64,000 bases of DNA from Ureibacillus sp. FSL W7-1570. GTDB taxonomy: Bacteria > Bacillota > Bacilli > Bacillales_A > Planococcaceae. Numbering within the stretch: the stretch's first letter is position 1; every line of letters starts with the position of its first letter. This document shows, piece by piece, positions 1,971-51,082 of the stretch. The stretch lies in assembly GCF_038593265.1 (NCBI RefSeq), contig NZ_CP151979.1, positions 2,425,001-2,489,000 on the forward strand, written 5' to 3'. The translations under genes were made by a program, and so were the position numbers. The notes beneath the pieces are model-generated. The model did no database searches and was not told the DNA's origin. It was given only the letters and a program-made list of their open reading frames with translations.

Positions 1971-2086
1971 TGAAGTGATGATGGCAAAGAGGTCACACCC
2001 GTTCCCATACCGAACACGGAAGTTAAGCTCTTTAGCGCCGATGGTAGTTGGGGGCTTCCCCCTGCGAGAGTAGGACGTCGCTTCGC
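1971..2086 (+). rRNA. 5S rRNA, copy A
   Basis: Canonical Bacillales 5S: helix I arms pair near 1971-1980 and 2076-2085, with the usual conserved body and loop E region. It lies about 57 bases after the 23S end, as in copy B. The helix near 2050-2062 is all G-C here, whereas copy B (48795-48910) has one A-T pair at the matching place, a compensated change. Confidence 0.95.
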
Positions 2087-2091
2087 AAGCA

Positions 2092-2118
2092 GAAACACCA
2101 CGAAAGTGGTGTTTTTTT
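2092..2118 (+). terminator. Intrinsic terminator of first rrn operon
   Basis: Perfect 8-9 bp hairpin (ACACCAC / GTGGTGT, loop GAAA) followed by seven T, six bases behind 5S. In the second operon this position is occupied by an IS1182-family element. Confidence 0.9.
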
Positions 2119-2130
2119 ATTGCCCAAAAT

Positions 2131-2390
2131 AAGCCCCCAACTACCAAAGACCGGAGGTCAGCTCGGCGCGATACAGAAACAGGAATAAAAGAGTCAAGCA
2201 GAAGAACCATTAGTAGTAGACGAGAAGCACGGGGACCAAGAAGATCAAGGAAGTGAGGCGGCACGGAGCGCAAGCGTCGGGTACGTGAGCACCGGACCGC
2301 CGAAACTGACGAGAGTAGCCGGTCAACGTGCTTCGTAGTTCGCGCCGATGGTAATTGGGGGAATCCCCTGCGAGAGTGGGACGTAGTTAA
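2131..2390 (+). ncRNA. Structured GC-rich post-5S element, copy A (5S-mimic; candidate ncRNA)
   Basis: No protein gene is supported. The last 50 bases (about 2340-2388) copy the 3' half of 5S rRNA. The first 16 bases (2131-2146) are the exact reverse complement of 5S copy A at 2042-2057. Within the element they also pair with its own 5S-like strand (2349-2361, one mismatch). A second helix, 2163-2171 with 2340-2348, is perfect and its 3' strand abuts the first, giving a helix of about 22 bp with a bulged hairpin (gacc-gga-ggtc at about 2149-2158). An inner stem pairs 2224-2231 with 2327-2334, enclosing a GGCGG/CCGCC stem and a GUGA-capped hairpin near 2280. A diverged copy at 50825-51082 keeps these helices. 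High GC in an AT-rich spacer fits an RNA gene. Function unknown; I do not recognise a family. Transcription is not shown, and a terminator separates it from 5S. Confidence 0.6.
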
Positions 2391-10621: not shown

Positions 10622-12506
10622 GTGCGCCCGGCATGTACATGAACTATAGGGTGTAAGTCCCGAACCCCGAAGACAGAAGTAGAGGTTAGCCAAGAGCAAG
10701 GGTGTCCGTGGTGACGCGGAATCTGAAGGAAGCTGGAGGCAAAACACCGGTCCGAGGAACACGAACCTCATATAAGGCTAGGTATGATTGAGTGAGTTTG
10801 CAAAACAAAACAAAGCTCTTTCTGTCGAAGGTCATATCGAGTAGATGAGGCGGATAGATGGTGTGAAAGTGCATGTACTTACCCGGGGAGGTCTGGCGGA
10901 TAGGTGAAGTACGCTTCATAACCTACTTAGTGATAAGTAGCTGAACCGTCAGAAGTCAGCAGAGGTCATAGTATTAGTTGGTCTAGAACAACTAAGAAGG
11001 ACCGAACAATTAAGAGAGAATAGCCCTTGGCATTCAGTGAGTCATGATGAACACAGAAAACGTAGTACCTCACTTGAGGAAGGAAGCGGTGAATCCCGTG
11101 GGGGACCTCTTGGAGGGTGGAGTGACCACTGGCATAAAGAGAACAGCTATTCACGGAAGGAGAATAACGATGCTTTTGAATCAAATCCTGTCACGGGAGA
11201 ACATGCTTCAAGCACTAAAACGTGTAGAACAGAATAAAGGAAGCCACGGAGTAGATATGATGCCCGTACAAAACCTACGACAGCACATAGTCGAAAACTG
11301 GCTATCTATTAAGGAGGCAATTCTCAAGGGAACTTATGAACCAATGCCAGTCCGCAGAGTCGAAATCCCGAAACCTGACGGCGGTGTTCGTTTACTAGGA
11401 ATCCCTACCGTAACAGACCGTTTGATTCAACAAGCAATCGCCCAAGTACTTTCAAAAGTGTATGACCCTACATTCTCTGAAAACAGCTACGGATTTAGAC
11501 CAAACCGAAGTGCCCATGATGCGGTGAGGAAAGCGAAAGAATATATAAGAGATGGACATCGATGGGTTGTAGATATGGACTTGGAGAAATTCTTTGATAA
11601 GGTCAACCATGACAGATTAATGGGTACACTCGCGAAGAGAATCCAAGATAAACCATTACTGAAATTGATTCGTAAGTATTTACAATCGGGAGTCATGATT
11701 AATGGTGTGGTGTCAAGCACATTAGAAGGAACTCCACAAGGAGGACCATTAAGTCCGCTACTATCTAACATTGTACTAGATGAACTAGATAAAGAATTGG
11801 AAAGAAGAGGACACAAATTCGTTCGATATGCGGATGACTGTAACATTTACGTGAAAAGTAAACGAGCAGGACTTCGCACAATGGCAAGCATTCAACGATT
11901 CATTGAAGGAAAACTACGACTGAAAGTAAATGAAAAGAAATCAGCGGTCGACCGTCCATGGAAACGTAAGTTTCTAGGATTTAGCTTTACCTATCATAAA
12001 GAGCCAAAGGTTCGTATCGCAAAAGAAAGCCTTAAACGAATGAAGAATAAAGTTCGTGAAATCACATCACGCAAGATGCCCTACCCGATGGAATACCGCA
12101 TTCAGAAACTGAATCAATATCTAGTGGGATGGTGTGGATATTTTGCGTTAGCAGACACCAAATCTATATTCCTTGAATTAGATAAATGGATTCGTAGAAG
12201 ACTTCGAATGTGTCTATGGAAGAACTGGAAGAAACCGAAAACAAAGACACGCAACCTTATTCAGCTTGGCGTACCACAATGGCAAGCGTATGAATGGGGA
12301 AATACTCGGAAGAGTTATTGGCGTATTTCAAATAGTCCAATATTACACAGAACCCTTGGTAACTCCTATTGGAGAAACCAAGGGTTGGAAAGTCTTGAAG
12401 CTCGTTATGAAAACTTGCGTCAATTATCTTAATTGAACCGCCGTATACGGAACCGTACGTACGGTGGTGTGAGAGGACGGGAGTTAATCGCTCCCTCCTA
12501 CTCGAT
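10622..12506 (+). mobile_element. Group IIC intron with intron-encoded protein
   Basis: The RNA begins GTGCGCCCGG and contains the conserved stretches of domain I (GGGTGTAAGTCCCGAAC, GAGGAACACGAACCTCAT, TTACCCGGGGAGGTCTGG), closely resembling the Oceanobacillus iheyensis group IIC intron as I recall it. Domain V is at about 12434-12470 (GCCGTATACGGAACCGTACGTACGG) and domain VI at about 12472-12500; the 3' end is assigned at ...CTCGAT. It interrupts no gene and sits behind the serS terminator. The element looks complete and may be active: both RNA ends and a full reverse transcriptase are present. Confidence 0.93.
11170..12432 (+). CDS. ltrA: Group II intron reverse transcriptase/maturase
   Basis: Intron-encoded protein that helps splicing and copies the intron into DNA. 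I prefer the ATG at 11170, behind GGAAGGAGA, giving 420 residues; the reading frame is open 42 codons further up but without a ribosome site. Reverse-transcriptase blocks are intact: GIPTVTDRLIQQAI, SYGFRPNRSAHDA, DMDLEKFFD, TPQGGPLSPLLSN and the catalytic YADD (about residue 223). A maturase (X) domain follows (about 280-370, YLVGWCGYFA). No HNH endonuclease domain, as usual for class C. Confidence 0.95.
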   Translation: MLLNQILSRENMLQALKRVEQNKGSHGVDMMPVQNLRQHIVENWLSIKEAILKGTYEPMPVRRVEIPKPDGGVRLLGIPTVTDRLIQQAIAQVLSKVYDPTFSENSYGFRPNRSAHDAVRKAKEYIRDGHRWVVDMDLEKFFDKVNHDRLMGTLAKRIQDKPLLKLIRKYLQSGVMINGVVSSTLEGTPQGGPLSPLLSNIVLDELDKELERRGHKFVRYADDCNIYVKSKRAGLRTMASIQRFIEGKLRLKVNEKKSAVDRPWKRKFLGFSFTYHKEPKVRIAKESLKRMKNKVREITSRKMPYPMEYRIQKLNQYLVGWCGYFALADTKSIFLELDKWIRRRLRMCLWKNWKKPKTKTRNLIQLGVPQWQAYEWGNTRKSYWRISNSPILHRTLGNSYWRNQGLESLEARYENLRQLS

Positions 12507-48794: not shown

Positions 48795-48910
48795 TGAAGT
48801 GACGATGGCAAAGAGGTCACACCCGTTCCCATACCGAACACGGAAGTTAAGCTCTTTAGCGCCGATGGTAGTTGAGGGCTTCCCTCTGCGAGAGTAGGAC
48901 GTCGCTTCGC
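48795..48910 (+). rRNA. 5S rRNA, copy B
   Basis: Complete 5S. Differs from copy A at the helix near 48874-48886, where A48875-T48885 replaces a G-C pair, and at the helix I arm (GACG for GATG). An IS1182-family element starts about three bases behind it. Confidence 0.95.
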
Positions 48911-50824: not shown

Positions 50825-51082
50825 CGCCCTTAACTACCAAAGACCGGAGGTCAGTTCGGCGCGATACAGTAGCAGGAACCAAAAAGTGAAGCGGCAAGCC
50901 GATTAGAAGCAGACGAGAAGCACGGGGACCAAGAAGATCAAGGAAGCGAGGCGGCCCGGAGCGCAAGCGTCGGGTACGTGAGCACCGGACCGCCGAAGCT
51001 GACGAGAGTAGCCGGTCAACGTGCTTCGGAGTTCGCGCCGATGGTAGTTGGGGGGATCCCCTGCGAGAGTAGGACGCCGTTA
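50825..51082 (+). ncRNA. Structured GC-rich post-5S element, copy B
   Basis: Second copy of the element at 2131-2390. The 5' arm (50826-50839) pairs with the 5S-like strand 51042-51055 (G-U pairs allowed). 50856-50864 pairs perfectly with 51033-51041, and 50917-50924 with 51020-51027. The core 50911-51045 is almost identical to copy A, while the linker (about 50870-50910) is quite different and holds its own small hairpin (GCGGCAAGCCG). In the outer arm copy B has CCCTT where copy A has CCCCC, and its 5S has GAGGG where 5S A has GGGGG, so complementarity to the local 5S is kept with one wobble pair. IS1182 element 2 now separates it from 5S. Confidence 0.6.

Follow-up and report, generated by a model that had tools for sequence, protein, structure and literature searches.

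The window analysed here is a stretch of 64,000 nucleotides from the genome of Ureibacillus sp. FSL W7-1570 (contig NZ_CP151979.1, positions 2,425,001 to 2,489,000), a member of the Caryophanaceae, Bacilli, Bacillota in the NCBI taxonomy. Near its start lies the 5S rRNA gene of a cut rRNA operon, followed on the same strand by a terminator-like hairpin and then by an element of about 255 nt (2131-2390) made up of three parts, namely an anti-5S 5' arm, a rod hairpin of 120 nt and a stretch that repeats the 3' portion of 5S rRNA. A second whole copy of the element is associated with a second operon of the window. The features relevant to the analysis are as follows.

1971..2086, plus strand: 5S rRNA, first rrn operon (cut), Rfam RF00001, 98.1 bits
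2042..2057, within the first-operon 5S: target of the arm, located as its exact complement
2093..2118, plus strand: intrinsic-terminator-like hairpin with a T run between the 5S gene and the element, recognised by eye
2131..2146, plus strand: anti-5S arm (P1), exact 16-nt reverse complement of 5S 2042-2057
2149..2159, plus strand: small hairpin P1a within the arm, 4 of 5 pairs changed on both sides
2163..2169, plus strand: P2, the arm's second segment, whose complement GCGCCGA occurs both in 5S and in the 3' part of the element itself
2220..2339, plus strand: rod hairpin, the core RNA described by model R2 (match G000:C1:2427220-2427339), with covariation
2339..2384, plus strand: truncated pseudo-5S, a copy of the 5S 3' part (5S 2032-2078)
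48795..48910, plus strand: 5S rRNA belonging to the second operon, with variant GTTGAGGGC, Rfam RF00001, 97.2 bits
48856..50676, minus strand: transposase open reading frame of 606 aa with DDE domains PF13751 and PF01609, also PF05598
50820..51093, plus strand: second whole copy of the element, 89% identity, arm GCCCTTAACTACC
50913..51032, plus strand: rod of the second copy (R2 match G000:C1:2475913-2476032)

Group II intron domains (RF02001, RF01998 and RF00029) were also observed in the window at 10705-12506.

The element is far more than a chance likeness. A first-pass annotation, made from the letters of the window, had described an exact 16-base reverse complement of 5S at the start of the element and a near copy of 5S at its end, and both were recovered: positions 2131-2146 are complementary to 2042-2057, and 2339-2384 shares 41 of 46 aligned letters with 5S 2032-2078, with one gap. 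The pseudo-5S corresponds to 5S from nt ~62 onward and is missing the 5' strands of helices I-III, while the letters of loop E and helix IV, located from the generally known structure of 5S, are mostly retained in the Ureibacillus units. Against the 5S family RF00001, the segment 2305-2392 scored 12.5 bits, below the gathering score of 38. The helices proposed in the annotation also exist: 2349-2361 is able to pair with 2134-2146, at the cost of one mismatch in this copy, and 2342-2348 with 2163-2169, the small hairpin 2149-2159 lying in between. Folding of 2125-2400 gave a z of -5.6 relative to dinucleotide shuffles, none of the 200 shuffles being as good.

The host genome contains seven full and three partial copies of the element. 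Six of the seven full copies are located directly behind a 5S gene, and the seventh is split from the second-operon 5S by the transposase gene listed above; two further 5S genes of the host carry no element and, as judged by eye, have tRNA genes behind them. BLAST searches in 41 genomes identified the element in at least 10 of 24 sister species, the full-length matches listed having 66-78% identity, and in these species it lies mostly immediately 3' of 5S, often in tandem. Further carriers (such as G004, G006, G015 and G019) were added with model R1. As a counter of elements this model was dropped, with matches in 250 of 261 genomes; many of these score as low as the tail of a real 5S, and model R2 was therefore used for counting. 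Some of the units at operon tails terminate in a copy of the operon's terminator. In G002, G012, G014, G016 and G022, tail units carry an alternative 3' ending, TAGACGAGCGC or close to it, in place of the 5S-like TAGGACGTCGC; this ending is found in several species, often where another unit comes next, and would extend the closing helix of the 5S-like hairpin.

Conservation of the structure was examined in alignments of increasing breadth. Among 35 full elements from 12 genomes, aligned with MAFFT, 17 of 53 pairs were changed on both sides, with 124 compensatory cells compared to 43 in shuffled alignments and 6-28 when the partners were slid; the count of further standard pair types (46 against 48.5 shuffled) shows no excess on that measure. 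The P2 helix is paired in 99.6% of the alignment cells, with changes on a single side only. Model R2 covers the inner 124 positions only, the 5S-like ends being left out, and was built from 46 MAFFT-aligned rods in which 22 of 33 pairs were changed on both sides. This rises to 30 of 33 pairs in 69 distinct rods whose alignment was fitted to model R2 itself, with 504 compensatory cells against 148 shuffled and 40-100 slid. The base pairs of the rod are maintained by compensatory change and its structure is under selection. The choice between random and compensatory substitutions, on which the annotation had in part made its proposal depend, falls on the compensatory side.

The rod forms a single imperfect hairpin without branches, and its internal loops are conserved and rich in purines. 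In one locus (L300), a rod ahead of 5S has apparently lost its apical part and retained the base helix. The annotation knew of no family with such a layout, and this holds for Rfam 15 (4227 families): the window element and two other rods gave only weak matches below the gathering scores, with E-values up to 10, and no match to the ribozyme families, while a search of 33 further loci at gathering scores found nothing on the rods. Known motifs suggested by inspection were set aside. A CUGACGA-like box noticed by eye hinted at the hammerhead or another known small ribozyme, a suggestion dropped in view of the plain, rod-shaped consensus fold; a canonical kink-turn at the GA-rich loop, also considered by eye, is unsupported, given a conserved G-C pair between the bulge and the GA pairs; and identity with the Bacillaceae-1 motif, already doubted in the annotation, is unsupported by any Rfam match to the window element or the two other rods. 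The middle of the window element is a member of a separate family of rod hairpins and not an anonymous 150-base insertion as the annotation had considered; the annotation overlooked both the rod and its position at stable-RNA starts.

The rods are distributed widely and unevenly in the Bacillota. Within the window's own family, the only one that the order-level search yielded, R2 matched 152 of 261 genomes and 12 of 19 genera; of the genomes sampled more broadly, it matched 86 of 398 for the class (40 of 146 genera) and 35 of 398 for the phylum (28 of 267 genera). The three samples overlap, the E-values are rough and 8-13 candidates were scored per genome; with overlaps removed, rods were matched in about 250 of the searched genomes. 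The rod, with its 124 model positions, is an imperfect palindrome present in many copies per genome: 11 genomes contained 2-27 R2 matches each, 10 of them at least seven. Head-to-tail tandem arrays also occur. One such array (L143:1677-2139, in G116) lies on the opposite strand at a distance of ~300 nt from a glmS ribozyme and is not adjacent to a stable RNA.

The location of the rods was examined in four complete genomes, in which the regions around the R2 matches were re-searched. In G082 (Lysinibacillus sphaericus 2362), all 21 rods are located at 23S (12, distance -1) or 5S (9, distance 3); in G184, all 17 are at 23S (12, distance -2), 5S (4, distance 0) or tmRNA (1, 3 nt before it); and in G244, all eight are at 23S (5, distance 3-4), 16S (1, distance -2) or tRNA (2, distance 1). 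Taken together, all 46 rods of these three genomes lie in sense orientation and stop no more than 4 nt from where an rRNA, tRNA or tmRNA begins. In the fourth, G173, 17 of 26 rods are at starts of full RNAs (23S 8, distance 1; 5S 5, distance 1; tRNA 4, distance 0-5), and the remaining matches comprise six at 5S fragments, one tandem and two others; this count omits two further R2 matches, both tandem neighbours, that were not recovered. No antisense stable RNA was found within 200 nt of the 72 rods of the four genomes. Many of the copies within one genome are homologous and do not represent independent insertions.

A similar picture emerges from 67 named loci with 86 rods, gathered by sequence pattern. 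In these, 54 rods have the first base of a complete stable RNA no more than 12 nt away (5S 27, tRNA 13, 23S 8 and 16S 6) and 16 are at a 5S fragment; the other 16 include six tandem neighbours and ten unclassified by the script, several of which are by eye 5S fragments or a rod followed by another rod. Among 76 labelled rods, 68 have a distance between -2 and +3 nt from the model end to the gene start, the extremes being -7 and +7. In Lysinibacillus, Psychrobacillus, Bacillus and related genera, sense rods directly adjoin the annotated start of a 16S, 23S, 5S, tRNA or tmRNA gene or a truncated 5S.

Other locations are found as well. Outside the class Bacilli and in some families of the Bacilli, rods also occur in ordinary intergenic DNA, and the intergenic rods of several families are often flanked by inverted ends, TGTTCAAAAA ... 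TTTTTGAACA. In G816 (L314-L316), rods are located 13 nt past the 3' end of 16S; rods also lie between the tRNA genes of the same spacer, one of them flush with a tRNA start. A rod at L178:2599-2721 stands immediately ahead of AAGGTGGTACCGCG, which resembles the conserved sequence at the close of T-box leaders, and no Rfam match to a T-box was obtained there at the gathering score. At L207:5597-5721, a rod lies directly 5' of a ribosome-binding site and a start reading MPNIKSA, presumably that of ribosomal protein S20.

Within one genome, some operons have no rod ahead of 5S. Five loci (L138, L285, L297, L299 and L303) are 23S-5S spacers of this kind, some with a promoter-like TTGNNN-TATAAT box visible by eye just 5' of 5S, and L138 has a long tRNA cluster after 5S. 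No target-site duplication was seen by eye at rod-free 5S sites.

The relationships between the rods were examined in a tree of 144 of 152 labelled rods, hand-picked from the match lists so as to avoid near-identical copies; the labels of six pseudo-5S, three tandem and six TTGAAC-type rods were given by eye, and the tree rests on few columns and has many open forks. The site labels require 24 changes on it (the minimum being 7) against a shuffled mean of 79.6, and the rods of tail units 4 changes against 44 shuffled, while the rods ahead of 23S are among the least clustered (11 changes against 14.5). This grouping suggests that the rods tend to keep their type of site over the long term, with repeated colonisation.

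The main rival to a function in the host is that the rod is purely a mobile imperfect-palindrome repeat of the MITE, ERIC or REP kind that enters transcribed spacers, keeps its pairs for its own movement as single-stranded DNA or RNA and has taken the 5S-like parts along as hitchhiked duplications. The many copies per genome and the patchy distribution across the Bacillota are as expected for such a repeat, as are the coming and going of rods between the rrn operons of one genome, the head-to-tail arrays and the inverted ends on intergenic copies of several families; to this extent the suggestion of a mobile element made in the annotation was borne out, although in part only. It is difficult to reconcile with an unselective repeat, however, that every rod in three of the four complete genomes ends at a stable-RNA start in sense orientation, that no stable RNA in antisense orientation lies near those rods, that rods group by site across genera, which points to long-term retention, and that the empty sites show by eye no duplication of the target. 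On balance this explanation is doubtful. A more novel reading, that the rod is an RNA element for stable-RNA 5' ends, is put forward tentatively, with the odds somewhat against it. It may take two forms, a universal 5'-maturation signal for one nuclease or a sequence joined to the ends of processed RNAs and then copied into DNA; both are considered because the DNA offers no common mark for gene starts so unrelated and for 5S fragments that start near one and the same nucleotide in several genera. The intergenic rods and those 13 nt after 16S favour the mobile palindrome over such a 5'-end element. A role of the rods as a substitute for RNase M5 was rejected, RNase M5 being present in nine of nine genomes, two of which have no R2 match. 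The host's own gene for this 5S maturase (TIGR00334) lies at G000:C1:2489157-2489684, 157 bases past the end of the window.

The arm is the part of the element that is directed at 5S. Its first 16 nt were scored against the real 5S of the genome and against the 3' strand of the same unit in 27 of the 35 aligned units, from eight genomes, the other eight units having no 5S in the stretch or not being included; one 5S was used per genome, except for the second copy of the window, and the local 5S of two units differs from it by a letter. The arm fitted the real 5S better in 23 units, equally in four and worse in none. Among 12 additional units, two fitted 5S better and three equally, six having no 5S in the locus and one (G015) being dropped because the position taken for its own strand was wrong. 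Arm and 5S have changed together in two places, which represent few independent events: in U. thermosphaericus DSM 10633 (G022) 5S reads GTAAGGGGC and the arm GCCCCTTAC, and in the second copy of the window the arm reads GCCCTTAAC beside the 5S variant of that operon. When 5S and element were folded together, the arm was placed on the real 5S with a probability of 0.995 for the window copy and 0.83 for a U. thermosphaericus copy, and the calculated duplexes for three host copies were -25 to -29 kcal/mol for arm and 5S against -20 to -21.5 kcal/mol for the arm and its own strand. The antisense arm covers ~24 nt of 5S. Judged by sequence and calculated folding, the Ureibacillus arm is a closer fit to the real 5S than to its own 3' strand; this could partly reflect an arm that drifts slowly while its own 3' strand changes faster. 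The pairing of the arm with its own strand, as first proposed, holds for the element folded alone, the real 5S being the better partner, and the further proposal of an RNA that pairs with 5S gains support in silico.

The match of the arm to the genome's 5S and the stronger duplex calculated for it could also point to a free-standing small antisense RNA with control over 5S in trans, the arm being its seed and the rod its stabilising body. Such a role is unlikely, since no promoter was identified by eye between the terminator-like hairpin and the arm, since the tail units of other genera are without the arm yet keep the rod and the pseudo-5S, and since native 5S is folded and protein-bound. With the unit behind a terminator-like hairpin and no promoter seen by eye, its expression is taken here as an assumption.

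In those other genera, the tail unit behind 5S consists of a terminator, a rod, a 5S fragment and a terminator, with no anti-5S arm; an arm antisense to 5S is found in the units of Ureibacillus and of two more genera from the same family. Clamping of 5S by the arm therefore cannot be the general function of the tail units. The 5S fragment starts at nt ~40 (36-40 as aligned) in several genera and families and at nt ~62 in Ureibacillus, while Kurthia units have lost all of 5S except roughly its last 30 nt. These layouts fit a duplicated rod-5S-terminator segment in which the 5' part of 5S was lost. The relic of a duplicated 5S envisaged in the annotation thus stands for the 3' part of the element and agrees with the rods and longer 5S pieces elsewhere, and fails for the supposed insertion, which is the rod.

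It may be asked whether the unit is anything beyond a decayed tandem duplicate of rod, 5S and terminator, refreshed by recombination with the real 5S in the multi-copy rrn operons. The 5S piece is cut variously in the different genera, tandem and partial units exist, and the operon's terminator is copied at the end of some units, all of which agree with decay. Compensatory change inside the tail-unit rods and P1a is not expected of a decaying copy, nor is the recurrent non-5S ending (TAGACGAGCGC or close) common to several species, and the tail-unit rods are strongly clustered on the tree (4 changes against 44 shuffled); mere decay is accordingly considered quite improbable. The least credible of the explanations is the decoy also raised in the annotation, in which the 5S-like 3' hairpin would attract a protein that binds 5S (L25/Ctc or another). 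The loop E and helix IV letters, mostly retained in Ureibacillus units, speak for it; in Kurthia-type units, however, what is left of 5S is just its final ~30 nt, and a binding hairpin cannot therefore be general.

The explanation preferred here, with a probability of roughly 0.45, is that the element constitutes an RNA unit of three parts behind rrn operons, the core of which belongs to a large uncatalogued family of rod hairpins, and that the rod acts at the RNA level as a partly mobile boundary hairpin, the Ureibacillus form clamping 5S in read-through transcripts. The rod would be a portable boundary of precursor RNAs, placed just outside the mature 5' end, and may serve as a site for cutting by a host nuclease or as an insulator of trimming and folding. 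The tail unit would be derived from a duplication of rod, 5S and terminator followed by loss of the 5' part of 5S. When RNA polymerase passes the first terminator, the arm could clamp helix IV/V of the upstream 5S, the clamped, unterminated 5S precursor would be locked in a non-native fold, and the rod, the pseudo-5S and, where present, the second terminator would bring the transcript to its end. In such a scheme the anti-5S arm would be a natural tail through which 5S transcripts inhibit themselves.

Among known systems, the ERIC or IRU repeats of enterobacteria are imperfect palindromes of ~125-127 bp that occur in many copies in transcribed and varied intergenic DNA. Set beside this description, the rods are similar in being imperfect palindromes with many copies per genome; they differ in their occurrence in Bacillota, in the conserved purine internal loops and in their location exclusively at stable-RNA starts in three complete genomes. 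In some other families, rods are also scattered in intergenic DNA. If the reading as a mobile palindrome is true, the rod belongs with an already known type of repeat. The processing stalks of pre-16S and pre-23S and the pre-5S substrate of RNase M5 likewise place double-stranded RNA just outside the mature ends of rRNA. The rod shares this position; unlike the pre-rRNA stalks it consists of one hairpin, complete in itself and located 5' of the gene, and a single rod family stands ahead of 16S, 23S, 5S, tRNA and tmRNA. In Gram-positive bacteria, the maturation of these five classes is generally assigned to different enzymes. A single hairpin family, absent from Rfam, at the starts of all five in the species with examined loci would point to a shared maturation step or to a mobile element that reads RNA ends, and both readings are directly testable in culturable species.

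Two further comparisons concern RNAs related to 5S or found near rRNA. The 5S family itself (RF00001) is represented at the end of the window element by a copy from nt ~62, with the sub-gathering score given above. The Bacillaceae-1 motif (RF01690), listed in PMC2864571, is likewise a structured RNA of Bacillaceae, situated near rRNA according to the first-pass annotation, and is set apart from the rods by the lack of an Rfam match to the window element or the two other rods. In chloroplasts, AS5 is an antisense RNA complementary to the 5S-trnR region, and its overexpression was associated with lowered stability of 5S, as reported in PMC3017836. The window element resembles AS5, as described there, in being an RNA complementary to 5S; AS5 is a natural antisense transcript, whereas the arm is encoded on the 5S strand itself, further downstream, and spans ~24 nt of 5S. 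Among the open-licence PMC papers listed, titles and abstract openings yielded no published description of the rod. In none of the ERIC repeats, the pre-rRNA stalks and AS5 does the covariation of a hairpin go together with a place at the starts of five stable-RNA classes, and the rod family is accordingly rated as new.
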